Shown: one piece after another, positions 1-42,814 of the stretch | How positions within the stretch are numbered: the first letter of the stretch is position 1 | Layout: every line of letters begins with the position of its first letter | Virus record (IMG/VR): IMGVR_UViG_3300021963_009993 | Span: 117,261 to 181,260 of that record | DNA from: a virus | Length of the DNA stretch: 64,000 nucleotides | Strand: one strand, 5' to 3' | Notes under the pieces: model-generated | Database searches by the model: none | What the model saw: the letters and a program-made list of their open reading frames with translations, nothing else | What the model was told of the DNA's origin: nothing | Made by a program: the position numbers and the translations under genes

Positions 1-226
1 CATCATCCCAATCATCTTCCTCATCGTCCCAATCGTCTTCGTCTTCGTCCTCATCGTCATCCCAACTATCCCAATCATCTTCATCGTCATCTTCATCATC
101 TTCATAAGATGTAGATAATTTAGGTTCAATAATTGTACAAAAACCAGAATCATTTAACGAAGAGAAAAAGCAATCAATATTTTCTTCATTTAATTTTGGA
201 TTGATGTTTCTTAAAAACCAACGCAT
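1..226 (-). CDS. Acidic Trp/Asp-rich protein, 3' end cut by window edge
   Basis: The frame opens with ATG at 226 and runs off the left edge, so the C-terminus is missing. Its start overlaps the stop of the upstream gene as TAATG, so translation is probably coupled. The N-terminus has a K-L-N-E motif at about residues 11-14, the (L/I)-x-E type of site cut by T4 prohead protease. After residue 42 the chain is almost only Asp and Glu with periodic Trp (DDW units). T4 prohead core protein gp67 is also small and acidic, so a head-core role is possible but is inference. No enzymatic domain is visible. Confidence 0.6.
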   Translation of the reverse strand, partial: MRWFLRNINPKLNEENIDCFFSSLNDSGFCTIIEPKLSTSYEDDEDDDEDDWDSWDDDEDEDEDDWDDEEDDWDD

Positions 227-1869
227 TATTTAAACCCCCTGCAATTTGAAACATATGAAACACGACCGCATGATGTATGATAGCGTATATCACAATTATT
301 TTCAAATTTTGGTTCAGGAATTGGTGTAGTTCCTGCACAGCTTCCATATGTGCAACATCCTGTATTATTTTTAGGCTTCCAACACTTGCCATACTCTGGA
401 TTACCTTTAATCTTACAGTTGTTTGTAAAACAATCACATTGGAATATATTTCTTACAAGATTGTTCTCCTGATCTTTCGACCACACATCACCCTCTTTAT
501 CACCAAATACATTCTTTCCAAAAATGTATTCCATGAAATACTTGGCTGCATTTAAAGAATCATCGACACAACATGCCTCATTAACACCCGGAGCAAATCC
601 CTGCATTTGGTACATTTCATCTACAGGTATACAAACATTCATGTCCATTAAATTTTGAACACCCATAGATTCAACTGCGTCAGGAACGATGTGCTTAAGT
701 TGTACCTTTAAGCTAGCTTTCTTGATTTGCAAATCATTAAAGTGTGTAATCTTTGTGACATTTTTCTCGAAATTGTTCACATTGCTCATGCTCATGGCAC
801 GAACAGCAAAGACATTTCTATTATTGAAAACTTTGGTCAAAACATCAGCATGAGACTCAGGTCTTGCTGCATCCACTTGCTGCCATGTCTTACAGAATGT
901 TTCAAAGAAGTTAGATGCAGCTGGGGCTATTTTGCAAGCTTCAAGGAATGTATCTTTCAAATACTCTCTAGCCTTAACAATAGCTAATTTGTTGTTTCCA
1001 AACTTGTCAACCAAACCACAAAGAACATCATAGAAAATTCCTGTCATAACCCTTGAAAAAGAATGAGGTTCAGATGATAATTGATCATTCGGAGCATTGT
1101 GTGGCAATGTCTCAGGTTTGATGTAATTAAATGTGTTAAAAGCATTTCTCAAACCATGACTAAAACCAAGTTCAGCACCAAACTGTTCTGCCACTTCACT
1201 AATAATATTATTTTGTCTTAGATTACCGTTTGTTCTTTCCATAAGATAATTCAAAACAATATCATAATGTAATGTTGCTAATATAGCTGTTATGTCACCA
1301 AAAGCTTCATGGAAAGCCCAAATTTCCATAGAAGCCATGCTGAAAAACTCTGGTCTAATTGCATCCAACAAAGCATGACCTAATTCATGAGATACAATAT
1401 CAGCAGACAAACAGGTATAAACTGTTTCTTTACCCTTAGTGAAATAAAAGAACTTCAAAAATGACCTGTCATAATAGGCATTTGCCTGTTGACCAGCCAA
1501 AGGATTGACTTGAAGTGTGTCAACCATTGCCCACTTTGTTATATTCAATTTAGGATTCAAGAAGTTAATTGTATTAGCCAATACACCATAAGCATTTGCA
1601 GCTTTGCCACCATTTGTGTTAAAATCCATTTCATTAGGATTTAAATACATAACAGATATTTTTAATCTATCTGGTTTAACATCAGCTACACTTTCTGTTA
1701 GTGCTGGATATGCTGGATCATTTACATAAAATCTCATTTTGCCTCCAAATGGGTCTATTTTTTGAATAACAGGTGGTGTTGGAATCTTGTTGTTAATCTT
1801 AGGAGGTCTTCTCCATACTACATTAAATAAGTCCATTGCCTTATCATATAAATACTTGCAATTGAACAT
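226..1869 (-). CDS. M4/M36-like gluzincin metalloprotease with Cys-rich tail
   Basis: This 547-residue protein has the zinc motif HELGH at 161-165 and a downstream HEAFGD at 187-192. E188 is the expected third ligand, and the pattern is that of thermolysin/fungalysin-type gluzincins, which cut peptide bonds with one catalytic zinc. The N-terminal 150 residues look like a non-catalytic or pro-region. The last 75 residues are rich in Cys (CDC, CC, single Cys), suggesting a disulfide-bonded or metal-binding module. No signal peptide is seen. The start is supported by GGAGGTG upstream of ATG. The gene diverges from the next one across only 22 bp and is coupled to the acidic gene downstream. Virion-associated host-surface degradation is a plausible role, not shown. 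Confidence 0.8.
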   Translation of the reverse strand: MFNCKYLYDKAMDLFNVVWRRPPKINNKIPTPPVIQKIDPFGGKMRFYVNDPAYPALTESVADVKPDRLKISVMYLNPNEMDFNTNGGKAANAYGVLANTINFLNPKLNITKWAMVDTLQVNPLAGQQANAYYDRSFLKFFYFTKGKETVYTCLSADIVSHELGHALLDAIRPEFFSMASMEIWAFHEAFGDITAILATLHYDIVLNYLMERTNGNLRQNNIISEVAEQFGAELGFSHGLRNAFNTFNYIKPETLPHNAPNDQLSSEPHSFSRVMTGIFYDVLCGLVDKFGNNKLAIVKAREYLKDTFLEACKIAPAASNFFETFCKTWQQVDAARPESHADVLTKVFNNRNVFAVRAMSMSNVNNFEKNVTKITHFNDLQIKKASLKVQLKHIVPDAVESMGVQNLMDMNVCIPVDEMYQMQGFAPGVNEACCVDDSLNAAKYFMEYIFGKNVFGDKEGDVWSKDQENNLVRNIFQCDCFTNNCKIKGNPEYGKCWKPKNNTGCCTYGSCAGTTPIPEPKFENNCDIRYHTSCGRVSYVSNCRGFK

Positions 1870-1891
1870 AATTCACCTCCAAAGGATATTT

Positions 1892-2410
1892 ATGAATATC
1901 GAAGAAAGAATTAGGGAACAAAGAACATCAGAAGCTACAAGAAAAAATTTTATGGGCATAGAAGGCAAAATATGCCTAATAGCAAGATTCCTAGGTAGCC
2001 AAATAATAAACCAAGGTTATTCACCAGAATACCTAGATTATGATAGTTTCTATACTACAGATCCAAATGAAATACCTACTTTTGATGATGAATTTTCTTC
2101 AAACGAAGTTGGATATTCATTTGATGGCCTTTCAAGAGGTATTCATATGAATATAACCTACATAGAATCACAAGCCATAATCAAACTATGGTATAAAGGG
2201 TATTTGACATACCATGAAGAGGAAGGAAACCTTCAAACTTACATACCAAATGATATTTGGGAAAACCAAATTGAAAATCTTTACAAGATAGTTGAATTGC
2301 AATTAAAGAAAAAAATAGAACAGTACAAAAAAGAAGAACCGGCAATTACTAAAGCAATTGAGAAAAGTGAATTACAAAAATTAAGAGACAGATGGGGCGA
2401 TATTATCTAA
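1892..2410 (+). CDS. Hypothetical protein, 172 aa
   Basis: The start at 1892 is preferred over an upstream ATG at 1787, because AAAGGA lies just before it and the longer frame would overlap the divergent protease gene. The product is soluble, with a mixed central region and a Lys/Glu-rich helical C-terminus (about residues 130-172) that may form a coiled coil. No known motif was recognised. The gene stands alone on the plus strand between minus-strand genes, and its stop overlaps the stop of the small zinc protein on the other strand. Confidence 0.75.
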   Translation: MNIEERIREQRTSEATRKNFMGIEGKICLIARFLGSQIINQGYSPEYLDYDSFYTTDPNEIPTFDDEFSSNEVGYSFDGLSRGIHMNITYIESQAIIKLWYKGYLTYHEEEGNLQTYIPNDIWENQIENLYKIVELQLKKKIEQYKKEEPAITKAIEKSELQKLRDRWGDII

Positions 2411-2535
2411 CTGTTTGTTTTTGATTCGCAATTTAAACACTTGTAAACCTTAGTGCCATCACAATAATCATGTGAATCAACACAGACTGTTTTAAATCCA
2501 CACTCGTAACAGATTACTATTGATTCGTTTTCCAT
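2407..2535 (-). CDS. Tiny zinc-ribbon-like protein, 42 aa
   Basis: A short frame of 42 codons starts 5 bases after the stop of the upstream structural gene. It contains CYEC near residue 9 and CLNC near residue 33, a spacing typical of a four-Cys zinc ribbon. No Shine-Dalgarno sequence is visible, so expression would depend on coupling to the upstream gene. Function is unknown. The paired CxxC motifs and tight packing argue that it is real. Confidence 0.5.
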   Translation of the reverse strand: MENESIVICYECGFKTVCVDSHDYCDGTKVYKCLNCESKTNS

Positions 2536-2540
2536 GATAA

Positions 2541-7382: not shown

Positions 7383-9896
7383 ATGCCGACTCCAATATGG
7401 TCCGATTATTTTAAGACTTTTGATTTTGCTTTTACCAAAGATCCACTAAGTAGGACTTTAAACACCAAAAATATAGTTGGTGCCGGTATTGCACAACCAG
7501 ACTCCATACCCAGCCTAAGTCCAGATGGTAGCTTTTGGAGCGGAACTGATTCAAGATTAATTAGACTTCGTGAAACAAACGATTTTATTGACCTGTCAAC
7601 TGTAACAAACAGGCAAAGCAGATACAAGGAATACGAAAGACTTATTACCATTCCAGAAATCGAAATGGCATTGAATGTCTTCGCAGACGAAGCTTGTGTT
7701 GCTGGCAGAACAAAAGTCGCAACTCCATTCGGAATGATACCAATAGAAAAATTGGCAGAAACACATGCGAATGAAAAATTCTTGGTCTACTGCTATGATT
7801 TCAAAAAGAAAGATTACACACTTGGATGGGGGCATAGTCCACGAAAAACAAAAACTGAAAAAACAATAATCATAATTTTCACAGATGGTACTGATTTGGA
7901 ATGCACAGCAGATCATAAGATTCTTCTGAGAGATGGAACTTGGATTGCAGCAGGGGAAATAAGAGAAGAAATGGAAATCATGCCGTTTTATAGGTGTGAA
8001 CCAAGAAAATATATGTCAAAACTGAATGAAAAACAGTTTCCCAGAATATACACCCACACAAAAGGATGGATTCACGAAAGACAATTAGTCGATGAATGGA
8101 GAACAGGAAAAGAAAACGAAAGGCAACAACTCGTAAACAAGTTCTGTCGCCATGTTTGTGAAGGATTAACTGTAGCAAAATTGGAAGAAATATTAAATAC
8201 AAACTACATCACAATAACAAAAAACCTTAAAAAAGAAGGTTTTTGTATTGACGAATTAAGATGGCTTGGCAAAAAGAAAGATAGAAAAACAGTAAGATCA
8301 GTTATAGAAGGCAGAACAACAGATGTTTATGATTTGACTGTTGAAGAACACCACAATTTTTGCACAGATACAGTTGTCGTACATAATTGTCAAAAAGATG
8401 CTAACGGCAATATACTCAAAATTCATTGTGAAAACGATGATGTAAAAGAAGAACTTGAATTTCTGTTCTTCCATAGATCAATGATAAACATCAATAGAAG
8501 AGCATGGGCAGATTTCAAATCTCTTTTGCTTTATGGGGATCTTTTTTATGAAATAATAATCAATCTAGATAATCCTCAAGATGGTGTGTTAAGGCTGTTA
8601 AAACTACCACCAGAATCGATGTACAGAATTGAAACTACAAAAGGAAAAGTAGTTGAATTCCAACAATCTAAAGAAGGCCCAGATTACCAAAGCTTGACAA
8701 GGGCTCCAGTCACTCAAGCAACTGATCAAGAAATCATGATGGCAACAGCAATACGATTTGCTCCCGAACAGGTAATCCATGCCAGAATTGGTGATGATAG
8801 GAAAATGTTCTATCCATATGGCGTTTCGATGGTTGAAGCTGCCAGAGGGCCAGCACACCAATTAAGACTCATGGAAGATGCCATGTTGGTTTATAGACTT
8901 TCAAGAAGCCCTGAAAGAAGAGTTTTCTACATAGATGTCGGACAACTTCCACCATTCAAAGCAGAAGCATTTATAGAAAAAATGAAAGATCAATTCAGGA
9001 AGAAAAAAATATCCACAAATAGAACAGGTATGACTGGGCCTAATTCCGTTGAGGAAAGATACCATGCACCAGCGGTAGATGAGGATTACTGGTTGCCCAT
9101 AAGACCAAATTCCAACACAAAAATTGAAACACTTCCTGGTGCCCAAAATCTCGGTGAAATAGATGATGCAATCTATTTCAGAAACAGATTGTTTACAGCT
9201 TTGCAATTCCCCAAAAATTATTTCAATGTAGAAGATGCATCAGTAACAAAAATAACACTATCAGCCCAAGATGTTCGTGTTGCAAGACTTGTCGAAAGAC
9301 TACAAGCTCCTTTTGAGGATGCTATGTGGGAAGTTGCACACAGACATTTGCAACTTAGAGGTTTCCCACCAGACACATATACCGATCTGCAAGTAAGAAT
9401 GACTGCTCCATCTGAATGGCGTGAACTAAGCAGAGCAGAAGTTGTAAACACAAGAATTCAAAATGCCGGTGCTTTGAAAAGCGGAAACTTATTATCAGAT
9501 TATGACATCCTTACAAAATGGATGATGTATTCTGAAGATGAGGCAAAAACACTCATCGCAAGACTAAAGATGCAGAAAATTGAAGATGCCAAACTTCAAG
9601 TTCTTGCTCAAAATCCGGCACTTCTTGGCGTTGGAATACCAGCAGATGATGAATCACAGGAAGGCGAAGAAATTGGCGCAACACCAGAAGGACCAAGTCC
9701 ACAGCTTGCACCACCCGGAGAAGAGAACATACCACAAGAACCAAGTGGTTTTGAGGGACAACAAGCACCAAACACAAGCGTTGGTGGCGCACCCATTCCA
9801 TTCCCAAGCTCAAAGGATATTCAGAAATATGATATGGAAATCAATAATTATGCCAATGAAGAAGATTATGAAAGCCCGGATTTTGATGTTGAATAG
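7383..9896 (+). CDS. Portal protein (gp20-like) interrupted by an intein
   Basis: The exteins (residues 1-104 and 336-837) form a T4 gp20-type portal, the dodecameric ring at the head vertex through which DNA passes. Recognisable parts are the helical core around RRAWADFKSLLLYGD, the LKLPPESMYRIE segment, the stem-like region before LPGAQNLGEIDD, and FRNRLFTALQFPKNYFN. Order between terminase and prohead protease agrees. The last 110 residues are Pro/Gly/Gln-rich and probably disordered. The spliced protein would be 606 residues (T4 gp20 is 524). The start has GAAGAGGTG upstream. The intein interrupts the sequence after FADEA, so splicing is needed for a working portal. Confidence 0.93.
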   Translation: MPTPIWSDYFKTFDFAFTKDPLSRTLNTKNIVGAGIAQPDSIPSLSPDGSFWSGTDSRLIRLRETNDFIDLSTVTNRQSRYKEYERLITIPEIEMALNVFADEACVAGRTKVATPFGMIPIEKLAETHANEKFLVYCYDFKKKDYTLGWGHSPRKTKTEKTIIIIFTDGTDLECTADHKILLRDGTWIAAGEIREEMEIMPFYRCEPRKYMSKLNEKQFPRIYTHTKGWIHERQLVDEWRTGKENERQQLVNKFCRHVCEGLTVAKLEEILNTNYITITKNLKKEGFCIDELRWLGKKKDRKTVRSVIEGRTTDVYDLTVEEHHNFCTDTVVVHNCQKDANGNILKIHCENDDVKEELEFLFFHRSMININRRAWADFKSLLLYGDLFYEIIINLDNPQDGVLRLLKLPPESMYRIETTKGKVVEFQQSKEGPDYQSLTRAPVTQATDQEIMMATAIRFAPEQVIHARIGDDRKMFYPYGVSMVEAARGPAHQLRLMEDAMLVYRLSRSPERRVFYIDVGQLPPFKAEAFIEKMKDQFRKKKISTNRTGMTGPNSVEERYHAPAVDEDYWLPIRPNSNTKIETLPGAQNLGEIDDAIYFRNRLFTALQFPKNYFNVEDASVTKITLSAQDVRVARLVERLQAPFEDAMWEVAHRHLQLRGFPPDTYTDLQVRMTAPSEWRELSRAEVVNTRIQNAGALKSGNLLSDYDILTKWMMYSEDEAKTLIARLKMQKIEDAKLQVLAQNPALLGVGIPADDESQEGEEIGATPEGPSPQLAPPGEENIPQEPSGFEGQQAPNTSVGGAPIPFPSSKDIQKYDMEINNYANEEDYESPDFDVE
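7695..8387 (+). other. Intein within the portal gene, 231 aa
   Basis: The insertion starts at C105 of the precursor with block A (CVAGRTKVATPFG). Block B lies at intein residues 65-75 with TADH, whose His assists the first cleavage. Block F is DVYDLTVEEHHNF and block G ends VVVHN, followed by C+1. All splice-junction residues (C1, penultimate H230, N231, C+1) are intact, so splicing should work. The region between blocks B and F (about 105-205) has no LAGLIDADG motif. It carries a helix-turn-helix-like stretch (LTVAKLEEILNTNYITITKN) and an HNH-like remnant (HTKGWIHERQLVDEW), suggesting a lost or minimal homing endonuclease. Confidence 0.92.
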
Positions 9897-10195
9897 TTAA
9901 CCAATCCACGCTGACCACCATAACCTTTGACATATCCCAATCCAGATTCGACTGGATTTTCAATGAAGTCATCAGCGTCCGACATCAAATCGTTCATCAC
10001 ATTCTTAACAGCATCTTCCCTGTCGGCAAATGACTGAATGAAATCAAAACATTCAGTAGGATATTTTTGGACAAGTGTTTTAAACAATTCTACGGAACTA
10101 TCCGCAAGCTTTGCCTGCAAATCCACAGGAAGCTTGGAAATAATTATGCCAGAATTCTTGTCATTTTCTTCTAAATAATTTAAAAAAGATTTCAT
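9866..10195 (-). CDS. Putative head-targeted protein, 109 aa
   Basis: The N-terminus MKSFLNYLEEND matches the T4 internal-protein targeting peptide style (MKTYQEFIAEA) and offers an L-E-E site for the prohead protease. The rest is a helical protein with no known domain. GGTGA lies upstream of the start. The 3' end overlaps the end of the portal gene by 31 bp in convergent orientation. A role as a packaged internal protein is inferred from the N-terminus and its place beside the head genes. Confidence 0.65.
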   Translation of the reverse strand: MKSFLNYLEENDKNSGIIISKLPVDLQAKLADSSVELFKTLVQKYPTECFDFIQSFADREDAVKNVMNDLMSDADDFIENPVESGLGYVKGYGGQRGLVNYSTSKSGLS

Positions 10196-10334: not shown

Positions 10335-12128
10335 ATGAAGAAAAAATTTATTGACTTCAACACTTTCAAGGCTCTTGAAAGCAATTCACTAACAGCTATT
10401 GAAAAAGAACTAAATGAGGCCTCCGAAATCTTGGCCAAAGTTCTAAATGAAAAAGTTCTCAGCGTTCATTGCCTAAACGAGAACGATGTCACATTTATCA
10501 ACGCTGACGGCAACTTGATTCATGCCGATATCAGCATGGACAAGAATAACTTGATCCTAGAGAACATCGAAGAATTGGTTATTGATGAATCCAGCTTCAA
10601 CAATGGCAGAAAAGAAATTGTCAACAAGATGGTAGAAAGCATTCTAGAAGACAATTTGGCAGAAGCTAGCATAAGATTCTCCGACTATTTCAACAACGCT
10701 ACTCTCAAAGCTAACTTGCGTGAAGGAATCATCTCCGAAGCAGAAGAAAAAGAAGAGAAAAAGAGCAAGAAGAAAGGCAAAATGCCTGAAGGTCTTCTCA
10801 AGTATTTTCAAGCCAAAGCAAAGAAAAAAGGCATGTCCAGCGACAAGATGATGAAGAGAAAAGCCAAGAAAGGCAAGTTCCACGGCAAGAGACTATCGAA
10901 GCTTGGCAAGATGGCTGGCGACAAGAAAATGCACGAGTGGAATGTAATTTCTACTAACATTCTTGAATTTGTTGATTTCAAGAACAGCGGAAATGTTTTC
11001 CAAAATGTTCGCAGCAATCGTGATGGAAACGGAAATGTAACCTCTTTGTCACTCCCAAGAACACATGTTAGAAACGAAGGCAAGATCCTAAGTTTCACAT
11101 GGAATGTTTGCAACGCTGCTGCTGAAAATGGCAGAAAAGATGCCAAGAAGATGGGAATGCATGAGTCCAACTGGGTTCGTGCTGTCAACGACATCAAGAG
11201 ACTAAATGCTCTAAATGAAACAGAATCACTAGAAACAGCTTTTGAAAACATCGCAGCTGCTTGGCCAAATGTAATTTATTTGACAGCTAGTGAATTATCT
11301 TCCAAAATCAACGAGACACTAGATGCTTCTGGTGCTGGTAACTATGATGATTCAACCTGTGATTTCCTTGCTGATGGAATTCTAAGAACAGCCCATAAGG
11401 CTTATGGCGATAAGGTAAACAAAGTTTACTCCATAGCTGGCAAGCAATTCAATTCTGATGATTTCGACGGATTCTCCGCTATCGCTGAATCTGTTTACAG
11501 AAATCTAGACGAGAACATCAAGACACAATATCAAGTATTCGCTGACCTATATCGTGGTTTGAGCGAAGCTTATAGAACAGCAGAAAGAATGGGCGACGAA
11601 GCCACAAAGGCCGAAACAGCTTCATTCATTCATGAGTGCGAATTGGTTCTAAACAAAAGAGCCGAACCATCCTTGGATTTGGCTGAAGACGCTGCACTTT
11701 ACCTACAGACCATCAGCGAAGGAAGTGATTTCGATAGCAAAGATTGGAATGTTGATGACATGGCTCATGTCAGCACAACATTAGACAATCCAGCTATCCA
11801 CAAATATGCCTCAATCGATGGCTCACCAGCCAAGAATGCAGGCAAATTTGATGGCAGTCCAATGTCTGATGGCAAGATGGTCAAAGTAGATGTTGAAGAT
11901 TATTACACAGGAATGAAGGGAGCAGACATGTTCCCCAGCGTCAGCAATCCTTATGCTCCAAAACCCGGCGAATTCAAGATTCACGGCGAAAAAGCTATCG
12001 ATGACGATGAAAATGATTTGGGAACTTATCAAGGTGGAGACACTTGGCCAAACCTCAAGAATCCCTACCTTCCAGATCATGGAATGACAATGAAGGATAC
12101 ATCAAAACTCCTTCATGGCAGCGAGTGA
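10335..12128 (+). CDS. Prohead core protein, 597 aa
   Basis: Located between portal and prohead protease, where T4 has core genes 67 and 68. The N-terminus has an F-rich targeting-like segment (FIDFNTFKALES) and repeated L-N-E sites (KELNE, KVLNE, CLNE) within the first 55 residues, the type of sequence cut by gp21. Residues 135-190 are strongly basic (KKSKKKGK and similar), fitting contact with packaged DNA. The remainder is helical with an acidic end. I chose ATG 10335 with GGAG eight bases before it; the frame could start at a TTG 15 bases earlier. Codon use is richer in GC than the neighbours, like the capsid gene, suggesting high expression. Confidence 0.75.
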   Translation: MKKKFIDFNTFKALESNSLTAIEKELNEASEILAKVLNEKVLSVHCLNENDVTFINADGNLIHADISMDKNNLILENIEELVIDESSFNNGRKEIVNKMVESILEDNLAEASIRFSDYFNNATLKANLREGIISEAEEKEEKKSKKKGKMPEGLLKYFQAKAKKKGMSSDKMMKRKAKKGKFHGKRLSKLGKMAGDKKMHEWNVISTNILEFVDFKNSGNVFQNVRSNRDGNGNVTSLSLPRTHVRNEGKILSFTWNVCNAAAENGRKDAKKMGMHESNWVRAVNDIKRLNALNETESLETAFENIAAAWPNVIYLTASELSSKINETLDASGAGNYDDSTCDFLADGILRTAHKAYGDKVNKVYSIAGKQFNSDDFDGFSAIAESVYRNLDENIKTQYQVFADLYRGLSEAYRTAERMGDEATKAETASFIHECELVLNKRAEPSLDLAEDAALYLQTISEGSDFDSKDWNVDDMAHVSTTLDNPAIHKYASIDGSPAKNAGKFDGSPMSDGKMVKVDVEDYYTGMKGADMFPSVSNPYAPKPGEFKIHGEKAIDDDENDLGTYQGGDTWPNLKNPYLPDHGMTMKDTSKLLHGSE

Positions 12129-12160: not shown

Positions 12161-12832
12161 GTGAACGAAAGACTACTAATAGATTGCTGCATCGGTGGTG
12201 GTTTGACCCTCAATCTGAACGAAAGCTCAGATAGGGGTCTAACCCGTTTCAGAGGAAAATTCCAAGAAGCTGATGCTGTAAACAAAAACAAAAGAATGTA
12301 CACACATGGTGTACTAGATGAGAATGTAAAGAAATTACAAGAATGCATGAAAGCCAGAGGCCTAGTCGGTGAACTAGACCATCCAGAAGACTCCATCATT
12401 CACTTTGAGAAAGCAAGCCATGTCATCACAAAATTGTGGTGGGAAGGCAACACACTCATGGGAGAAGGTGAAATACTAAACACCCCTCATGGCAAAATTC
12501 TCAAAGCACTTATAAATGATGGCGTTAGGGTTGGTGTTAGCTCCCGTGGCGTTGGCAACGGAAAGGTGAATGAAAATGGCATCTTAGTGATTAACGAATC
12601 GTATAAGTTGATCACATTTGATGTTGTGGCTGATCCGTCAACATATGCTGCTTTTCAACAAAAAGTAGGTAGCACAAAAGAAAGTGCAGAATACCTACCT
12701 GAAAAAACTGAAAATTCTTCGATTAAAAACGAAGGCAGCAGCATACATAGAATTAACAAAGAAGCTCTAATAGCTTGCTTGGGCGGTATCGTTAAAGAAC
12801 AAACTAACAACATCCTAATGAGGTTGGGCTAA
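12161..12832 (+). CDS. Prohead protease, T4 gp21-like
   Basis: This serine protease matures the prohead by cutting scaffold, core and capsid proteins at (L/I)-x-E sites. The signature GELDHP places the catalytic His at 74, and VGVSSRGVG places the catalytic Ser at 127 or 128; DVVADPS follows near 154-160. The herpes-protease-like fold is known for this family. The gene starts with GTG preceded by AGGAG at a good distance. Its stop overlaps the start of the scaffold gene as TAATG, which couples the two. An LNLNE motif near residue 21 could be a self-cleavage site. Length of 223 residues matches T4 gp21 (212). Confidence 0.93.
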   Translation: MNERLLIDCCIGGGLTLNLNESSDRGLTRFRGKFQEADAVNKNKRMYTHGVLDENVKKLQECMKARGLVGELDHPEDSIIHFEKASHVITKLWWEGNTLMGEGEILNTPHGKILKALINDGVRVGVSSRGVGNGKVNENGILVINESYKLITFDVVADPSTYAAFQQKVGSTKESAEYLPEKTENSSIKNEGSSIHRINKEALIACLGGIVKEQTNNILMRLG

Positions 12833-13737
12833 TGGAAAACAAAATTATCGAATCTTTGAAGAAATTAATTCCTTCTGACCAAATCAACGAGGTCGCTTCA
12901 GCCATCAACGAAATGCTGAATGATGCCAAAGAGGATATGGAAAAGGAATACAATAAGAACCTTGAGGAAGCTTATAGCCAGCTTTCCGCTGAACTAGGCG
13001 AATCCGAGAAAGTAGCCTACACAGGCTACCAAGAAGCATACGAAATCATCAATGATCTTCGTACTCGCTTGGAAGTCCAAAAGGAAGAATTCGAAAGAAC
13101 TCTCGAAGAAGGCTACGAAGAAGCTTATCAGATGCTTCTAGCCGAAAGAAACAATAAGTCCAAGGTCGAAGTTGACCTTTACGAGGAATACGATGGCAAG
13201 CTAGCTGAAATGAAGGCATACATCGTTGAGAAAGTTGATCAATTCCTACAGTTCAAGGGTGGAGAAATCTACGAACAAGCCCGTCAGGATTTGGTAAACG
13301 ATCCACGCATTCTTGAACACAAGGTTGCCTTGGACAAGATTGTAAATATCGCTTCTGGATATCTCTCCGACGAAGAGCGTAGCTTCGCTACCAGCACCAA
13401 GTTGGAAGAATCACGCAAGCAACTAGAAGAGTTGAAGGGCCAACTTCGTATCATGGAAGCCCGTAACATCAGACTCAGCACAGACAACACCCGTCTAACA
13501 GAGTCTGTTCGCAAGGCTTCAACAATGATCAACGAGAGCAAGGTTAACACCGCTGCTACCGTCAAGAAGGTAAAAACCCTAACCGAGCAGAAAGACAGAG
13601 TACAGAAAGCAAAGAACGCAAGCGGGAGAGGACATACCGACACCGAAAATGTTCAAGTTATTGCGGAATATAACTCAAACAACGGTGAATCAAACGAACT
13701 TTTGATTCTCTCAGGCGTGAAGAAGCCAAAAGCTTAA
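12832..13737 (+). CDS. Prohead scaffold protein, T4 gp22-like
   Basis: A 301-residue, highly charged protein that is almost wholly helical, with long coiled-coil stretches (about 25-130 and 185-260), as expected of the core scaffold that shapes the prohead and is then degraded. Many Glu-rich segments could serve as prohead protease sites. It is coupled to the protease gene by TAATG and precedes the capsid gene, the order of T4 genes 21-22-23. Codon use indicates high expression. The C-terminus (LLILSGVKKPKA) is not acidic, and C-terminal residues in T4 gp22 contact the capsid shell. Confidence 0.88.
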   Translation: MENKIIESLKKLIPSDQINEVASAINEMLNDAKEDMEKEYNKNLEEAYSQLSAELGESEKVAYTGYQEAYEIINDLRTRLEVQKEEFERTLEEGYEEAYQMLLAERNNKSKVEVDLYEEYDGKLAEMKAYIVEKVDQFLQFKGGEIYEQARQDLVNDPRILEHKVALDKIVNIASGYLSDEERSFATSTKLEESRKQLEELKGQLRIMEARNIRLSTDNTRLTESVRKASTMINESKVNTAATVKKVKTLTEQKDRVQKAKNASGRGHTDTENVQVIAEYNSNNGESNELLILSGVKKPKA

Positions 13738-13771: not shown

Positions 13772-15214
13772 ATGAACGCAAATGCTAGATTTCTAAATGA
13801 AGCAAGAGAACTAGAAGGTCGTTGGTCAAAGACAGGCATCCTAAAGGGAATCGAAGATCCCTATGTCCGCTCTGCTACAGCTGTTCTCCTAGAGAACCAG
13901 AGATTGATCAATGAAACTTCTACCGATACAAGCGATGTCGCTCAGTTCAAGAGAATTTCTATTCCTCTTGTTCGCCGCATCTACCCCCAGTTGATCGCTA
14001 ACAAAATCGTCAGCGTTCAACCACTACTAGGCCCAACCGGCTTGGTATACTATCTCCGCTTCCGCTATTCCAGCAACAAGGGCAGCGTCCGTGGTGCTGA
14101 CAACAATGGTGGATTCCCCGGAGATGATGTAAACTCCCTACAACAGCTAGCCTCTGGCGATGCTAACCTAGACATCTTCTATAGCAGCCAGTTCGTTCAG
14201 AACGAAACAACCGCTACTGTACCAGCAGGTGCCAGCGCAGTTGTTAACTACGGTGCCGTAGAACACACACCAGTACTAGCCGGAACCATGACTGGCACCG
14301 CTTACTACAATAGCGCAGCAGTCGCAACTTTCGTTGTAAATTCCGCTGGCGCAGTAACCATCACCCCAATTACTGGTGCTGTTCTCCCAACAGCTGGCTC
14401 AATTGATCTAGCCACAGGCGTTCTAAGCTTGACTTGGAATGCTTCAGCAGCTGGCGCATCTTCCTATTGCGTAGTTTCCTACGAGTACAATATGGAATGC
14501 AACCAAGATCTTCCTGAGATCAATCTAGTAATTGAATCCGAAGAAATTGCTGCCAAGACCCGTAAGCTCAAAGCTGTATGGTCCTACGAAGCACAACAAG
14601 ACCTCCGCTCTCAGCACAACCTAGACGCTGAAGCTGAACTAACCGGAGTTCTTGCTCAGGAAATCAACCTCGAAATCGACCGTGAAGTAATTCAGGACTT
14701 GCGTAACAACGCCGGTACTGTCGCTGCATGGGATCTTGCCACCGCCCTAGGTGACACCATCAAGGAAAAATACGAAGCTCTCTATGTCAAGATCGTAGAA
14801 GTTTCCAATGTTATCCATCGTAAGACACTTCGTGGTGGAGCTAACTTCATCGTTACCTCTCCTGAAGTTGCCTCTATCTTCGAAACAGCAACAGCCGGTT
14901 TTGCTCCCGCTCCTAGCGAGACATTTACCAGCAGCCTAGGCATCCAGTATGTCGGCACCGTTGCTAACAGATGGAGACTATACAAAGATCCTCTATTCCC
15001 AACCAACCAGTTGTTGATGGGTTACAAGGGCGACAGCTACATGGACAGCGGATATTTCTACTGCCCATATGTACCACTAACACAAACTCCAGTTGTGCTA
15101 GATCCAGAGAGCTTCTGCCCCCGTAAGGGAATCCTTACTAGATACGGCAAGAAATTGCTAAGAGAAGGCGCAAAGTTCTATGCAAGGCTATCAATTGCTA
15201 ACTTTGTAGTATAA
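13772..15214 (+). CDS. Major capsid protein, T4 gp23-like
   Basis: The protein has the HK97-fold T4-type capsid pattern, best seen in the segment with LIANKIVSVQPLLGPTG followed by YYLRFRY, which matches the gp23 'GVQPMNSPTG' region, and in AVWSYEAQQDLRSQHNLDAE. An insertion-like Ala/Thr/Val-rich segment (about residues 150-240) resembles an added surface domain. The N-terminus MNANARFLNEAREL has an L-N-E site. Cleavage further in, near residue 60, is also possible as in T4. GAGGTAAAA lies before the ATG. The gene has strong codon bias and a perfect terminator 33 bp downstream, as expected for the most abundant virion protein. Confidence 0.95.
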   Translation: MNANARFLNEARELEGRWSKTGILKGIEDPYVRSATAVLLENQRLINETSTDTSDVAQFKRISIPLVRRIYPQLIANKIVSVQPLLGPTGLVYYLRFRYSSNKGSVRGADNNGGFPGDDVNSLQQLASGDANLDIFYSSQFVQNETTATVPAGASAVVNYGAVEHTPVLAGTMTGTAYYNSAAVATFVVNSAGAVTITPITGAVLPTAGSIDLATGVLSLTWNASAAGASSYCVVSYEYNMECNQDLPEINLVIESEEIAAKTRKLKAVWSYEAQQDLRSQHNLDAEAELTGVLAQEINLEIDREVIQDLRNNAGTVAAWDLATALGDTIKEKYEALYVKIVEVSNVIHRKTLRGGANFIVTSPEVASIFETATAGFAPAPSETFTSSLGIQYVGTVANRWRLYKDPLFPTNQLLMGYKGDSYMDSGYFYCPYVPLTQTPVVLDPESFCPRKGILTRYGKKLLREGAKFYARLSIANFVV

Positions 15215-22443: not shown

Positions 22444-22977
22444 ATGTTTAGTACACTTTTGTTTCCGATGTTATTTCTAATAATTTCTGTGCTTTTGTTA
22501 TGGGTAATTTTGGGATGCAAAGGGCATTGGTCTTTGAAATATTGGATAATAAATTTCACGATATTATTTGTTTTATTTTTTTGGGAAAGTGTCAATTCAT
22601 ATACAGGTTGGGCTACTGAAAACAGGATGCCTAAACAAGCAAGATTTTTAAGTTTTTATCCAGATGAACCAAAATGGCTTTTTGTAATTTTGCAGAAGGA
22701 TTGGTCTAAAGAAAAAAGAACAAACATTTTTGATTTAGTTGGTGCTAGGTCTGGTGATGAACCAAGGCTGTACAAATTACCATATGACAGGGAAACGCAT
22801 GAAAAAATGGAAAAGGCTATGGATAAAGTTCGTAGCGGTCAATATGTGTTGATTTCTTCTGGACTTGATGAAAACGGCAAGGAGATCAAAAAGAAATCAA
22901 ATAATTCTATGACTAGAGATGATGTTCCAAATTTTTATGTTTTGCCACCAGAGAAGTTTATAAAGAAACCAGATTAG
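22444..22977 (+). CDS. Membrane protein, third gene of the proton-channel operon
   Basis: Two hydrophobic helices at about 4-25 and 31-48 precede a soluble 130-residue domain. That domain has no recognised family; it contains KWLFVILQKDW and RSGQYVLISSGLDENG. It begins 3 bases after the ExbD-like gene and so is probably co-translated with the pair. It may anchor or regulate the stator, which is inference from position. Confidence 0.75.
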   Translation: MFSTLLFPMLFLIISVLLLWVILGCKGHWSLKYWIINFTILFVLFFWESVNSYTGWATENRMPKQARFLSFYPDEPKWLFVILQKDWSKEKRTNIFDLVGARSGDEPRLYKLPYDRETHEKMEKAMDKVRSGQYVLISSGLDENGKEIKKKSNNSMTRDDVPNFYVLPPEKFIKKPD

Positions 22978-23141
22978 TTTTTCTTTTTTTCTTTTTCGCC
23001 AGTAATTAGTGGAATCTTGGGGTCTTTGTTTTTGCAACCTTTTGGTTTTGCTCCCCAAACTTGGAAATCTGGACCACCGCAAGATGGGCCAACTACGAAA
23101 GCTTCATTTTTTGATTCCAGCCATTCTGTAAATGTCTTCAT
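22974..23141 (-). CDS. Tiny head-targeted protein candidate, 55 aa
   Basis: The product begins MKTFTEWLESKNE, very close to the T4 internal-protein targeting peptide MKTYQEFIAEA. The rest is Gly/Pro/Lys-rich with two Cys (PSCGGPDF, KGCKNKD). The C-terminus is basic (GEKEKKKN). No Shine-Dalgarno sequence is seen, and a TATAAT box is 3 bases before the ATG. It diverges from another targeting-peptide gene 17 bp away. Confidence 0.65.
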   Translation of the reverse strand: MKTFTEWLESKNEAFVVGPSCGGPDFQVWGAKPKGCKNKDPKIPLITGEKEKKKN

Positions 23142-23158
23142 GGAATTATATATAAATC

Positions 23159-23410
23159 ATGCTTAAATTAAGTTTCAAAGAATTCTTCTTGATGGAAGAT
23201 GGTGGTGTTGGGGGAAACCCTGGATCACCATTCACACTTCGACCAAGTTGGCTGAATGGTAAGAGTAAATTAGACAATAGTGGTTGTGGTGGAGGACCGG
23301 GTAAATGTCCCGAGATAAAATCAAAAGGATGTAGTGGTGGTCCCGGCCCTTGTCCAGCAGATGCTTCTTTGGGTGGTGGATCAGCAGCAGCCACTCCAGC
23401 TGCTAAATAG
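23159..23410 (+). CDS. Gly/Pro/Cys-rich protein with targeting-like N-terminus, 83 aa
   Basis: The N-terminus LSFKEFFLMEDGG fits the targeting style with an L-M-E cleavage site. The mature part is rich in Gly, Pro, Ser and Cys and contains paired motifs CGGGPGKCPE and CSGGPGPCPA, an internal duplication that suggests metal binding. No Shine-Dalgarno sequence is clear. The neighbouring divergent gene encodes a related Gly/Pro/Cys-type peptide (PSCGGPDF). Function is unknown. Confidence 0.65.
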   Translation: MLKLSFKEFFLMEDGGVGGNPGSPFTLRPSWLNGKSKLDNSGCGGGPGKCPEIKSKGCSGGPGPCPADASLGGGSAAATPAAK

Positions 23411-24020: not shown

Positions 24021-24581
24021 TTGGCAGATATTAAAAAAATCAAGCCAAATGCTATCAAAGTAATTTTACCCGAAGTTCAACAAAAAACCCACTTTTCTTG
24101 TGGTGCAGCTGTAGTACATTCCGTTTGTGCTTATTGGGGATTAGGACTCGATTCCCATTATGATTATTTTCCTTATCTGGAAACAGATGAAGCTTATGGC
24201 ACATTGCCTGACAAGATTGTTAGTTATTTAAAAGAAGTTGGTTTGAATTGCAACATTCAATACAACATGACAATTAAGAATTTATGTTTAGAGCTAGACA
24301 AGGGTCGTCCGGTGATTGTTGCTGTTCAGGCTTGGGGTAGCAGCAAAATGTATAGCAAATTTGGAAATGGTCATTATTTGGTTGCCATAGGTTATGACAA
24401 ACAAAATATATTTTTTGAAGATCCTTGGTTGAATTGTTCCAGAGGTTACATTTCAAAAAAAGATTTTCTGAAAAGGTGGCATGATATGGATTTCAAGTCA
24501 AAAATACATGAGAAAATGGGAATAGTAGTTTGGCATAGGAAGAATCCACTTTATAATTTTGCAGCAAAAAAGATTAAGTAG
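24021..24581 (+). CDS. C39-like papain-fold cysteine protease
   Basis: A peptidase C39-like domain of 186 residues: C27 in THFSCGAA is the nucleophile, H118 in GNGHYLVAIGY the base, and D134 in FEDPW the third member. Family members cut leader peptides at double-Gly sites or act as free papain-like proteases. No transporter domain is attached. Translation must start at TTG 24021, because no ATG occurs in the first 80 codons and AAGGGGGT is placed correctly before the TTG. It diverges from the 23996 gene. Confidence 0.75.
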   Translation: MADIKKIKPNAIKVILPEVQQKTHFSCGAAVVHSVCAYWGLGLDSHYDYFPYLETDEAYGTLPDKIVSYLKEVGLNCNIQYNMTIKNLCLELDKGRPVIVAVQAWGSSKMYSKFGNGHYLVAIGYDKQNIFFEDPWLNCSRGYISKKDFLKRWHDMDFKSKIHEKMGIVVWHRKNPLYNFAAKKIK

Positions 24582-30401: not shown

Positions 30402-30620
30402 ATGGTTAGTTTTTTAAAATGGCTTATGGAAGACAATGGTGCTGTTGCTGGTACTTATCAAAATGATGAGTTGCTTCAAAGCAGGGTAAACAGCAAATAT
30501 CTTGCAGTTGTCAACAAAAAAGACATGGTTGATAAAACAGCTGAATGTCTATTTGCTGGCATGTGTGAGAAGAAGCCAAAGAAAAAATTCACATATATGC
30601 GGGTTGCTGAAGAATTATGA
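30402..30620 (+). CDS. Putative internal head protein 1, 72 aa
   Basis: The N-terminus MVSFLKWLMEDNG fits the T4 internal-protein targeting peptide with an L-M-E cleavage site, leaving a mature part beginning at about residue 11. The mature part is basic (KKPKKKF) and has two Cys. This is the first of four adjacent small genes with similar starts (30402-31585). It has a TATAAATA box directly before the ATG instead of a Shine-Dalgarno sequence. Confidence 0.68.
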   Translation: MVSFLKWLMEDNGAVAGTYQNDELLQSRVNSKYLAVVNKKDMVDKTAECLFAGMCEKKPKKKFTYMRVAEEL

Positions 30621-30931
30621 TTACATTTTCAAGTCTAAATGAGAATATGGATTATAATAAAAAGCTTGCCAGACAGCAAGATGATGGAAAATGTATTGAA
30701 TCTATAGCTCATGGTTTGAAAATAGATGAGGATTTTTGGAAAAAGTTTTTGATGTTAACAAGAAATCCAGAGTCAACAGCAAAGCTTTTAAATGTTTCAC
30801 CTGAAAAAGTTAAGTCTTGGCATTCAAGAATCAAAGAATATACTAGAAAATTTTATGAAAATGAAACAGAGATAGAAATAAACAAAAAAAGAAAATTGGT
30901 AAACACAGACGATTTTGAAAAGTTTTTTTAA
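30617..30931 (+). CDS. Putative internal head protein 2 with HTH-like segment, 104 aa
   Basis: The start MITFSSLNENMD has an L-N-E site at residue 9. The mature part contains a helix-turn-helix-like segment (STAKLLNVSPEKVKSWHSRI) and a Lys-rich C-terminus, which suggests DNA binding. It overlaps the previous gene by 4 bp (ATGA). Confidence 0.66.
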   Translation: MITFSSLNENMDYNKKLARQQDDGKCIESIAHGLKIDEDFWKKFLMLTRNPESTAKLLNVSPEKVKSWHSRIKEYTRKFYENETEIEINKKRKLVNTDDFEKFF

Positions 30932-30939: not shown

Positions 30940-31272
30940 ATGATAAATTTTACTCAATGGCAAAAACAAAAGTTAAATGAAGATGTTGATTTAGCTGGTC
31001 CCTTGACTGCTACATCCAGTATGGTTTCTATCAAAAAATTACCATCGTCATTGCGAAAAGTTCTTGTAAAACTAAAAGATTCTGTTGACCGAGAAGGTGG
31101 TGTTGATAACAAGAGAGCATTTTTAGTTCAAGCTATTGAGGATGCAGGCTATCAAGATGAAGGTGTTAAGTCTGCTCTACAACAGTTAAAAGATGACTTC
31201 AGATGGATTTTATCACACTTAAAACAAGATAATTTTACCGATGAAGAACTAAATACTGAAGAACCAAAGTGA
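30940..31272 (+). CDS. Putative internal head protein 3, 110 aa
   Basis: Begins MINFTQWQKQKLNEDVD with an L-N-E site at 12-14. The mature part is a helical bundle-like protein with no recognised family. AGAGGAACA precedes the ATG. It stands 8 bp after the previous gene of the same type. Confidence 0.68.
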   Translation: MINFTQWQKQKLNEDVDLAGPLTATSSMVSIKKLPSSLRKVLVKLKDSVDREGGVDNKRAFLVQAIEDAGYQDEGVKSALQQLKDDFRWILSHLKQDNFTDEELNTEEPK

Positions 31273-31279: not shown

Positions 31280-31585
31280 ATGACACTAAGCAAATTCAAT
31301 TTATGGCGTGAGAGTAATGAAGTTGCCCCAGCTATGAATATGCAGCAACCACAAGTACCTGCACAAGGTGTAACTCCTGTTCAACCAGCTGACGATATGC
31401 CAAAATTTATAGAAAACTTAGCTGGAATCATTGAGAAGAAGCTTTCTTCAAAGAACTCCCTAAATCATCAAACAATAACAGACTTTTTAAATAAGATAAG
31501 CCAGACATTGATGAGCAAAGTTTCTGGTGGCAAATTAACTAGTAGTGATATAAGACAGGTTACAAATACATTAAAGGGAATGTAA
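31280..31585 (+). CDS. Putative internal head protein 4, 101 aa
   Basis: Begins MTLSKFNLWRESNEVAP, a looser match to the targeting pattern, with cleavage possible after the Glu residues at 11 or 14. A Gln/Pro-rich stretch (QQPQVPAQG) leads to a helical C-terminal domain. GAGG is present upstream. It is the last of the four-gene set. Confidence 0.62.
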   Translation: MTLSKFNLWRESNEVAPAMNMQQPQVPAQGVTPVQPADDMPKFIENLAGIIEKKLSSKNSLNHQTITDFLNKISQTLMSKVSGGKLTSSDIRQVTNTLKGM

Positions 31586-38707: not shown

Positions 38708-38731
38708 TTAAGATTTGAAGTTATTTTAAAC

Positions 38732-39658
38732 TTATTTCTTGCCTTGTGTGTAATCACTAACAACTTGCTTGAACAAATCTTTTAGATTTTGCTTGGTCAT
38801 AGTTGTGTTGTATTTTAAGATATGATCAATTAATTCGTTTAGCAAAGCTTTTACTTTGGTTTTGCTGATGTTTTTAACATCATTTTCCTTGAGAACATTT
38901 TCAAAACGACTAACAGCTTGTCCTGCCTTTCCTGATACCATAGGCTTTTTTTCATCTTTCATTTCAGGCATGACTTTTTTGTCTTCGCTTATAATTTTGC
39001 CGTTGGGAGCCATGTGGCCAATCATGGAATTAACGCTTTCCCACCATGCCTTCTCAGATAACATAGCCCCTTTTGTTTTCTTTGATTCTTCAACATCCAT
39101 ATCAAATTCCATATCCATTACTTCATCATCGCCCATCTCATCATCGTCTTCGCCATCGCTCATGCCATATTCGGCATCTTCGATTTCTTCATCATCCATA
39201 TCATCTTTTTCATCATCCATATCATCATCTTCTTCGTCATCTTCTTCATCATCCATATCTTCTTCGTCATCCATCATTTCATCATCCATATCCTCTTCGT
39301 CATCCATCATTTCATCGTCCATATCCTCTTCATCGTCCATCATTTCATCATCCATATCCTCTTCATCATCCATCATTTCATCGTCCATATCTTCTTCGTC
39401 GTCCATCATTTCATCATCTACATGGTGATGGTGATGGTGATGGTGTTTGTGGTGATGATGATCATCATCTTCTGATTCATATTCCATGTCTTCGTCTTCG
39501 TCTTCGTCTGATTCGTCTTCCATGTCTTCGTCTTCTGCTAACACTTCTGGCTGAGAAAATTGGGCACCTGTAATACCAAGTGATTTGGGAGATGAAATTC
39601 CCAAAGTTGTAGGACCAAGTGTCTCATTTAGCTTTTTCCACTTCTCGTAATTCAACAT
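38732..39658 (-). CDS. Acidic tandem-repeat, His-tract core-like protein
   Basis: The N-terminus MLNYEKWKKLNETLG carries the targeting pattern and an L-N-E site. Next come Glu/Asp-rich residues, a nearly pure His tract (about 70-80), and five copies of an 11-residue DDEMMDDEEDM repeat, then more acidic sequence. The C-terminal 100 residues are a normal helical domain (FENVLKENDVKNISK). T4 gp67 is an acidic core protein, so a prohead core or packaged role is reasonable. The His tract could bind metal. AAGGAG precedes the ATG, and CATAAATA lies about 60 bases upstream. Confidence 0.72.
   Translation of the reverse strand: MLNYEKWKKLNETLGPTTLGISSPKSLGITGAQFSQPEVLAEDEDMEDESDEDEDEDMEYESEDDDHHHHKHHHHHHHHVDDEMMDDEEDMDDEMMDDEEDMDDEMMDDEEDMDDEMMDDEEDMDDEMMDDEEDMDDEEDDEEDDDMDDEKDDMDDEEIEDAEYGMSDGEDDDEMGDDEVMDMEFDMDVEESKKTKGAMLSEKAWWESVNSMIGHMAPNGKIISEDKKVMPEMKDEKKPMVSGKAGQAVSRFENVLKENDVKNISKTKVKALLNELIDHILKYNTTMTKQNLKDLFKQVVSDYTQGKK
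39255..39420 (-). repeat. Five tandem 33-bp repeats coding for acidic units
   Basis: The unit encodes DDEMMDDEEDM. Copies differ at a few third positions (GTC or ATC for Asp codons, TCC or TCT). Length may vary between isolates by slippage. Confidence 0.85.
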
Positions 39659-39994: not shown

Positions 39995-40014
39995 AAAAAC
40001 CTCCTTATAAAGGT

Positions 40015-40020: not shown

Positions 40021-40026
40021 ATATTT

Positions 40027-41493: not shown

Positions 41494-41505
41494 CACCCTT
41501 TCAAT
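41470..41505. terminator. Bidirectional terminator between convergent genes
   Basis: AAAGGGTG (41470-41477) pairs with CACCCTTT further on, extended by CAG/CTG after one mismatch, with T-runs on both strands. It overlaps the last codons of the TPR-GT gene and serves the small gene on the other strand as well. Confidence 0.78.
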
Positions 41506-41518
41506 TAATTTCAATAGA

Positions 41519-41803
41519 TCAATTCGCAGCAACGCTCTTGGTTGCACGGGTAGTCTTTGCAGTTGGTACTGGAGCAACTTCAGCTGTGTAACCCAGAGCC
41601 AATGCCCTGCGCTTGCAAGCCTTGAGTGCAGCAGAGCGGGTGGGGAAATAAATGCCACCTTCTGCATGAAGAACAGCAGTAGTCCTGAAACCGGGAATGG
41701 TTGCATTTGCTTGGTAAACCGTGTTTCCATCAACGGTTCTTTCGTTGATAGTAAAACGGATAGCTCTTTCAGTAATCGTCGTTCTAGCGGTAGAATTGCT
41801 CAT
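41519..41803 (-). CDS. Small Ala/Thr-rich protein, 94 aa, likely abundant
   Basis: Codon use is GC-richer than the surroundings, like the capsid gene. The protein is basic and contains GGIYFPTRSAALKACKRRALA in the middle and an Ala/Thr/Lys tail (KTTRATKSVAAN) that looks DNA-binding or disordered. GGAG lies before ATG 41803; the longer frame is unlikely. No family is recognised. A basic tail and high expression would fit a DNA-binding or head protein. Confidence 0.66.
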   Translation of the reverse strand: MSNSTARTTITERAIRFTINERTVDGNTVYQANATIPGFRTTAVLHAEGGIYFPTRSAALKACKRRALALGYTAEVAPVPTAKTTRATKSVAAN

Positions 41804-41843
41804 GTTTAAACTCCAATACACAGCGTGACTTTGCACACATTTA

Positions 41844-41871
41844 CAAAAAAAAGGCGAAATACGAATCGCCT
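41844..41871 (-). terminator. Terminator after 41884 gene
   Basis: On the minus strand AGGCGA...TCGCCT forms a 6-bp stem with an 8-base loop, followed by eight Ts. Confidence 0.75.
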
Positions 41872-41883
41872 ACATTTAAAATT

Positions 41884-42492
41884 CTATTCATTTACACGAA
41901 AGAAATTCAAGCTATCTGTAAAAATTTTTTCGATGTTCTTTCTATTCAGCGATAAAAAGTTTATTTTTTGAATGTTCATTGGAGAACTCAAAACTATTGT
42001 GGGTGGCTTAAAGTTTCTTTCTTGATAGAAATTTTGAACTTTTTGAGTCAAATAAAGCTTGGAATGTTCTATTACAAGTGAATTAAATGTTAAATTTTCC
42101 AAGGTTCTTTCGACTATCTTATTTAAAGTGTCACAAGTATCTTCTATTTTTTTATTTTCAAATTCTACATCCACATACCAATTCATATTAAAAAAATCAT
42201 AACTAAATGATGGGTTGAGATTTGATTGTTGAAATGAGTTTTCTTCTATTTTGCAAAATTGATGTTTAGACAAATGAGAATCTTTTCTCATGGCTATTTC
42301 ACAATAAAAATTCTTAAATGTGAATAAAAAAGCATCTTCGGGTCTGATGTAATTAAAATATTTTTTGCAAAAAATACAACAGTCTGACAAGTACATATCT
42401 TTAGACAAAACATGGCAGAATTTGCAACGATTTATGAATCTTAAATCGTCTAATTTTGTTTCTGTTTTTTCAAGCAGTATTTCGTTATACAT
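41884..42492 (-). CDS. Hypothetical protein with CxxC zinc site, 202 aa
   Basis: The N-terminus has CKFC (near 23), then CCIFCKKYF (near 39), a likely zinc ribbon. The rest is a Phe/Asn-rich soluble domain with EHSKLYLTQKVQNFYQE. ATG 42492 is preferred; the longer frame uses TTG. No Shine-Dalgarno sequence is visible. Function is unknown. Confidence 0.66.
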   Translation of the reverse strand: MYNEILLEKTETKLDDLRFINRCKFCHVLSKDMYLSDCCIFCKKYFNYIRPEDAFLFTFKNFYCEIAMRKDSHLSKHQFCKIEENSFQQSNLNPSFSYDFFNMNWYVDVEFENKKIEDTCDTLNKIVERTLENLTFNSLVIEHSKLYLTQKVQNFYQERNFKPPTIVLSSPMNIQKINFLSLNRKNIEKIFTDSLNFFRVNE

Positions 42493-42568
42493 TATCAAAA
42501 ATAATTTAAAGATGAACTATATATAATTGTAGCATTTTTGTATGCATATTCCAATTGTGAGGATTTAA

Positions 42569-42814
42569 ATGAAATCATTTAAACAATGGGCTGAAAACAA
42601 GAACCTTGAACTTCCCGCTCTAAATGAAAAAACAGCCAGAGCAGGTATCGCACATTGGGCTTATCCAGATGGTTATATTCGTAGCCATTATCCCGGCAGC
42701 TATTTTATGCCTATAGCAGCCGATGCCCTTCAGAAGATGGGTGATAACGCCGATGACGAGAGCAAGGTTGATCATGGTCAAATGAAATACAAGCACCACG
42801 ACAAACTTGATTAA
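42569..42814 (+). CDS. Putative head-targeted protein, 81 aa
   Basis: The start MKSFKQWAENKNLELPALNEK matches the targeting pattern and has an L-N-E site at 18-20. The mature portion is Tyr/His-rich and acidic (HWAYPDGYIRSHYPGSYFM). GAGGATTTAA precedes the ATG, and a terminator follows directly. It is a single-gene unit. Confidence 0.7.
   Translation: MKSFKQWAENKNLELPALNEKTARAGIAHWAYPDGYIRSHYPGSYFMPIAADALQKMGDNADDESKVDHGQMKYKHHDKLD

Follow-up and report, generated by a model that had tools for sequence, protein, structure and literature searches.

The internal proteins (IPs) IPI, IPII and IPIII of bacteriophage T4 carry an N-terminal capsid-targeting sequence (CTS) of about 10 residues, with an aromatic residue at positions 4 and 7, L or I at position 8 and E near positions 10–11. 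Their mature parts are unrelated, and the phage has a gp21-type protease. Mutagenesis of the IPIII peptide is reported to assign targeting to residues 4 and 7 and processing to residues 8 and 10, and the CTS has been discussed as a way in which, during evolution, various proteins may gain entry to the head (PMC9026906). The T-even internal proteins are described as a diverse defence set with only the CTS in common (PMC3012670), and IPI and IPIII can decide host range (PMC9391042). Here we describe an N-terminal peptide, very probably a CTS, on about 40 proteins encoded in a virus record of 181,260 bases (IMG/VR IMGVR_UViG_3300021963_009993, hereafter G000). The window, the whole stretch of 64,000 bases that was analysed, is bases 117,261–181,260 of this record, and the rest of the record was also scanned. 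Positions marked genome are those of the record.

The peptide of G000 is like that of the T4 IPs in its length, in the placing of its aromatic, L/I and E residues, in the unrelated mature parts and in the presence of a gp21-type protease. It differs in that Trp is preferred at residue 7 and the E mostly sits one or two residues beyond its place in IPIII, in having some 40 carriers rather than three, in the enzymes and ankyrin proteins among its cargo, and in the T4-late-like boxes immediately before the start codon. T4 Alt, a packaged ADP-ribosyltransferase (ART), provides the parallel of an enzyme delivered from the head. Alt had been named as a carrier of such a peptide in the original prediction, which was made from the window's sequence. 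The T4 682-aa gene at 123454–125502, which we take to be alt, begins MELITELFDED, unlike the F-x-x-W-L peptide, and this part of the prediction is withdrawn. The polyvalent and MuF-fused phage effectors (Iyer et al. 2021, 2022) are also many predicted packaged and injected proteins, with ART and NUDIX domains. Published accounts deduce their packaging from fusions and gene neighbourhood; in G000 it is deduced from an N-terminal signal that can be separated from the cargo. In myoviruses, ART and NUDIX proteins are said to be often packaged (PMC9503650). The phages phiKZ and SPN3US are likewise large and are described as having many ejected head proteins cut by the prohead protease, but phiKZ has no match to the gp21-like protease of G000 and no enrichment of the peptide. 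In the titles, abstracts and passages of the CTS literature we found no treatment of this huge-phage group or of so large a set. New are the size of the set, the dialect of its peptide, the placing of a box at the start and the occurrence in this clade of huge phages.

A shared N-terminal peptide on unrelated proteins

The closest record to G000 in the phage collection is LR756511.1 (W01), an uncultured phage of 595,163 bases whose capsid protein has 77% identity, and an IMG/VR relative of 533 kb (G001, 532,729 bases) was also found. G000 itself, at 181 kb, probably represents part of a huge-phage genome. The peptide survey covered five huge-phage records: G000, LR756511.1, G001 and parts of G003 and G004. 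In G000, 213 genes were called by a custom script, and their N-termini were scored with a nine-position matrix around [F]-x-x-[W]-[L], with a pass cut of 7 and the internal Met of the same genomes as the control. Training of the first matrix used the regex matches of G000 itself, less six (starts 14132, 71927, 86969, 64244, 169554 and 114059) that were removed by hand.

The peptide M-x(1-5)-F-x-x-W/F-L… is present at 38 of the 213 called starts, against 3 of 845 internal Met. Because the matrix was derived from G000 genes, the test was repeated with matrices trained on other phages. The matrix from LR756511.1 (99 regex matches, none removed) passes 38/213 starts and 8/845 internal Met, and that from G001 passes 36 starts and 6 internal Met (cut 6). 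With enrichment under both own and cross-trained matrices the peptide is real and far above chance, which the cross-trained matrices rule out as its cause. The whole-genome search, suggested in the original prediction, thus yields several times more members than had been noticed there. The two strands of the window together have 1219 open 16-mers that start with ATG, of which 13 score at least 7; eight belong to genes of the original prediction and a ninth begins the gene at 10335. Some peptide-bearing genes were missed or mis-started by the caller, and when every start is scanned, at least 30402 and 9866 (window) and genome 49714, 55991 and 69302 join the called set. Our best count of members in the 181 kb is about 40, only a small part of them inside the window. 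The densest stretch outside it, genome 42,656–59,206, holds 14 called genes scoring at least 7 and two starts missed by the caller. Genome 29,000–42,600 has few called genes, and its composition or content may differ.

The anchor is F or Y in 36 of the 38 members and is followed three residues later by W, F or Y in all 38, positions for which the matrix itself selects. The anchor aromatic is residue 4 in 19/38 and residue 3 in 11/38. The aromatic pair falls most often on residues 4 and 7, with Leu on 8, which are positions found important in T4 IPIII.

Behind the peptide the proteins vary widely, as had been predicted. The 149 peptide-bearing proteins of the five records form 124 sequence families, of which 109 are singletons. 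Codons at the conserved positions follow genome usage (13 TTC and 20 TTT for F, six different codons for L), and by about base 45 the peptide genes have lost their similarity in DNA. Together these indicate that selection acts on the peptide. The genome genes 42656 and 45692 are identical at 42 of 49 bases across box and peptide, with cargo that has no similarity. Recent duplication was rejected as the cause of the shared peptide, since it fits this one pair only and the other codons differ freely. In the family of the gene at 42569–42814, 10 of 12 IMG/VR relatives have an ATG-started aromatic-x-x-aromatic N-terminus. Its letters differ widely among them, and an E stands shortly before the conserved mature part (R)AGIAHWAYPDGY; an eleventh relative shows the pattern if a GTG is read as its start. 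Homologous proteins also occur both with and without the peptide, as in the C39-peptidase-like and 178-aa proteins of the window, and the two NUDIX genes of G000 differ likewise.

Head genes, a possible cleavage site and late-type boxes

By sequence comparison the head genes are T4-type, with a gp21-like protease and a gp23-like capsid protein in the same phage. The head maturation protease, which the original prediction had correctly placed here, is encoded at 12161..12832 (+); it matches phrog_207 (E 2.4e-50) and a T4 gp21 region with 35% identity. Next to it is the gene for a 301-aa protein (12832..13737, +) that has no PHROG match. Placed like gp22 of T4, with the protease gene on one side and the capsid gene on the other, it is a putative counterpart of that scaffold protein. 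The gp23-like major capsid protein (13772..15214, +; phrog_138, E 2.2e-83) has an N-terminal FLNEA that resembles a gp21 site, and LNEA is present near the capsid protein N-terminus in 50 of the 51 relatives examined from 80 capsid loci found.

A possible cleavage motif, [LI]xE within 20 aa after the aromatic pair, is found in 23/38 G000 members against 36/167 other N-termini. The corresponding counts are 24/55 against 209/902 in LR756511.1, 17/24 against 156/794 in G001, 7/12 against 40/201 in G003 and 11/20 against 44/264 in G004. The original prediction had placed L/I-x-E within about 20 residues in its genes; by eye this holds for seven of nine, and the genes at 22974 and 31280 are without it. 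In a conditioned test, [LI]xE was counted after the F..WL pattern in N-terminal copies and in internal copies of the same pattern. The difference is significant in four of the five records (19/39 against 23/106 in G000, 24/64 against 50/384 in W01, 22/37 against 44/278 in G001 and 13/32 against 20/105 in G004).

The T4-late-like box TATAAATA, with at most one mismatch, ends 3–8 nt before the start in 11/38 CTS genes and 5/175 other genes of G000. The same start-adjacent box is found in 13/55 against 17/931 genes in LR756511.1 and 3/24 against 2/806 in G001, and in the LR756511.1 histogram the box-to-start distances peak at 4–5 nt. When 52 nt upstream are considered, the box is present in 20/38 CTS genes and 42/175 others, and so marks a subset of the set. 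T4 late-promoter geometry would put the transcription start at or beside the A of the ATG; given the position of the box, a leaderless mRNA would result. Four divergent pairs have the peptide on both genes (genome 140401/140419, 49693/49714, 55952/55991 and 10385/10454), the two genes lying 17, 20, 38 and 68 bp apart. In the first two pairs most of the spacer is a single TATATATA box readable both ways, the 17-bp spacer being at 23142..23158 (genome 140402–140418), where the box is T4-late-like. These two-way boxes suggest bidirectional leaderless late promoters.

The peptide in other phages and its explanation

The peptide is enriched at gene starts over internal Met in all the huge-phage relatives: 55/986 against 9/2879 in LR756511.1, 24/830 against 10/3085 in G001, 12/230 against 3/887 in G003 and 20/297 against 2/1271 in G004. 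It is also enriched in XacN1 (11/556 against 3/1818) and KVP40 (5/361 against 2/1392). No enrichment was found in S-ShM2 (2/183 against 2/798), Flavobacterium phage immuto (1/213 against 2/762) or the parts surveyed of phiKZ (1/275 against 5/1410) and phage G (0/212 against 3/814). Two T4 starts pass, that of IPI, which is known to be packaged, at 10.2 and that of gp61.1 at 11.8, and the matrix, from whose training T4 was absent, ranks IPI second among T4 starts. The gp61.1 protein (NC_000866 18966–19130, 54 aa, next to 61.2 = adfA) begins MKTFKEFIKED and, to judge from this N-terminus, is possibly an overlooked T4 internal protein. In immuto, 4 of 213 proteins begin with a different common peptide, FDLKKFLVENKLT-like, that is never internal. 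These four (NC_055915 1803, 103806, 117631 and 118632) have an N-terminus like M-x-FDLKKFLVENKLTxNS, which is perhaps another capsid-targeting dialect. We read the differing peptides of the phage clades as dialects of one kind of signal.

Taken whole, the best explanation is a CTS with a clade-specific dialect on an unusually large cargo set. We hold it with high confidence, and the earlier capsid-targeting interpretation is supported. The peptide-bearing proteins would be made late, and the aromatics of the peptide would bind the prohead scaffold core, so that the proteins are built in with the core. The gp21-like protease would cut many of them after L/I-x-E, and the freed mature parts would remain in the head and be ejected into the host with the DNA. 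One dialect, F-x-x-W-L, would in this way serve about 40 different proteins in the known 181 kb. Most of the cargo is lineage-specific, with ankyrin-repeat and NUDIX proteins and many that belong to no known family, and would comprise injected early effectors or anti-defence proteins. The few cargo proteins conserved across relatives are more likely to be DNA-binding or structural core proteins; the 38732 and 42569 families, conserved in this way, may be structural core proteins rather than effectors.

Most huge-phage genes have no known function, and a readable packaging signal would mark the proteins that enter the host first, which are candidates for host takeover and anti-defence. The scale, about 40 in 181 kb and 55/986 starts in the 595-kb relative, is far above the handful in T4. 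An extension of this explanation, for and against which we find the case evenly balanced, is an open, cassette-based secretome. The late box fused to the start codon, together with a 10–15-residue CTS, would be a module on ever-changing cargo, giving leaderless mRNAs, with some boxes serving two divergent genes. Between 40 and 60 effectors per virion would be delivered in one shot, and the peptide would work like a secretion signal peptide and mark unknown effectors.

Several observations weigh against the CTS explanation. There is no enrichment in T4 as a whole (2/256 against 5/959), and the matrix does not recognise T4 IPII and IPIII, for which the CTS is proven best; they have the pattern in different letters and score only -0.8. 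The kinship of the signals therefore rests on pattern and not on score. The predicted likeness to the T4 peptide stands in that the matrix finds IPI and the key positions of IPIII coincide, and fails in the scores of IPII and IPIII. The jumbo phage CBB, which has a gp21 homologue and published virion mass spectrometry, is without a peptide set (3/538 against 11/2032), so that its published virion list neither supports nor refutes packaging. The conditioned [LI]xE test is not significant in G003 (4/16 against 15/100), about 40% of the set has no [LI]xE, and the residue after the E is unrestricted. Two of the 38 members, 59264 (hydrophobic) and 127595, are probably not real members. Additionally, the gene starts are the custom caller's own predictions.

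Is the peptide a scaffold-binding packaging signal on proteins that are not effectors, but small core or DNA-condensing parts of a very large head? The 42569 family is present in all five huge-phage records, as are 38732-like proteins (in two sequence families), helix-turn-helix (HTH)-like members include three proteins of relatives, and the T4 IPs are described as partly morphogenetic (PMC9026906). However, 109 of the 149 members have no relative among the others, which is at odds with a structural role, and several carry enzyme or ankyrin domains. For the set as a whole we consider this unlikely. Or does the peptide direct the proteins not to the head but elsewhere in the infected cell, such as the membrane, the replication site or a host structure? 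Short amphipathic aromatic N-termini would be compatible with membrane or partner binding generally. The match to T4 CTS residues 4, 7 and 8, the excess of L/I-x-E, the late-type boxes and the fact that phiKZ and G, which have no gp21 match, show no enrichment all speak against such a destination, to which we give little credence.

It is barely conceivable that the peptide is an artefact, either of AT-rich starts that favour F, K, N and L codons or of a few recently duplicated genes. The likeness in box and peptide of the pair 42656/45692 speaks for duplication, but the remaining codons differ freely and the orthologues hold the pattern despite changed letters. There is no excess in phages G, immuto, phiKZ or T4, and equal enrichment in AT-rich phage genomes was looked for in G (part), immuto and T4 and not found.

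Peptide-bearing genes of the window and their cargo

Nine of the ten open reading frames listed in the original prediction exist with the N-terminus given there. The tenth, its weaker case at 1–226, scores -3.4 and is not a CTS member; the frame at 2–226, which continues to genome 117130, encodes the C-terminal half, very acidic and rich in D, E and W, of a protein of 118 aa. The 109-aa protein at 9866..10195 (-) has the N-terminus MKSFLNYLEEN (score 14.1), with a peptide-bearing 114-aa gene at the matching place in G001 (334739–335083). A conserved 597-aa head-cluster protein of the portal/core neighbourhood (10335..12128, +) has matches in 10/10 relatives' records and begins MKKKFIDFNTF. It scores 7.5 in the window and below 0 in the relatives, which have MKRKLI.YDVF-like starts, and it is not counted with confidence as a CTS protein. 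On either side of the 17-bp spacer are the genes for a 55-aa protein (22974..23141, -; N-terminus MKTFTEWLESKNEA, score 19.0) and an 83-aa Gly/Cys-rich protein (23159..23410, +; MLKLSFKEFFLMED, 16.2).

Four successive genes on the + strand encode a 72-aa protein (30402..30620; MVSFLKWLMED, 11.4), with a TATAAATA box that ends 5 nt before the ATG, a 104-aa protein that is HTH-like by eye (30617..30931; MITFSSLNEN, 7.5), a 110-aa protein (30940..31272; MINFTQWQKQKLNED, 16.9) and a 101-aa protein (31280..31585; MTLSKFNLWRESNE) that is borderline at 6.6, just under the cut. The 308-aa acidic/His-rich protein at 38732..39658 (-) has the N-terminus MLNYEKWKKLNET (9.7). Similar N-termini with L-x-E are found in five records, with relatives of the protein in G001 and G004 and look-alikes in W01 and G003. 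Repeated MMDDEEDMDDE units and an H-rich run give this protein a very acidic low-complexity middle between CTS and tail. The 81-aa protein at 42569..42814 (+) begins MKSFKQWAENKNLELPALNE, followed by K, and has a score of 20.8; its orthologues vary in the peptide and keep the pattern and the final E.

Three further genes of the window are without the peptide. The C39-peptidase-like protein at 24021..24581 (+), for which no alternative CTS start was found, has homologues in G001 and W01 that carry it (blastp E 2e-40 and 3e-37). The NUDIX protein at 43822..44214 (-) lacks the peptide, which the record's other NUDIX protein (genome 51235–51966) has. The 178-aa protein at 44211..44747 (-) has peptide-carrying homologues in W01 and G003.

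A Pfam search covered some of the 38 G000 proteins, and the cargo scan of the four relatives took in their 80 peptide-bearing proteins of at least 100 aa. Most cargo proteins have no known family match. The G000 cargo includes two ankyrin-repeat proteins (E 5e-40 and 2e-20), one NUDIX protein and one near-threshold PGDYG. Among the 80 proteins of the relatives are C39-type peptidases (2), HTH proteins (3), a tRNA-ligase CPD domain (1), a NIF-type phosphatase (1), an AAA_3 protein (1) and weak S-AdoMet-lyase-like matches (2, of which the one in G001 is under the curated cut-off); a TPP enzyme is probably a false positive of the matrix. Several assignments made by eye were rejected for want of significant Pfam support: ART for genome 1619, 47751, 53473 and 55991 (PARP E 0.11), kinase for genome 58088 and acetyltransferase for genome 45692 (GNAT E 0.14–0.19). 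For two cargo proteins no relatives were found in IMG/VR, sequence searches of PDB with the cargo gave nothing useful, and single-sequence structure prediction of two cargo proteins failed (mean predicted local distance difference test, pLDDT, 39 and 35). An ART-PolyVal protein (genome 49869–51170, -) sits in the densest cluster of peptide genes, but its own N-terminus scores -6.4 and is not a CTS. Just before its ART domain, behind a CTA codon, is an internal peptide-like stretch, DFSFKTFLTLQEEN, which may mark a fusion or a place where the protein is cut internally.

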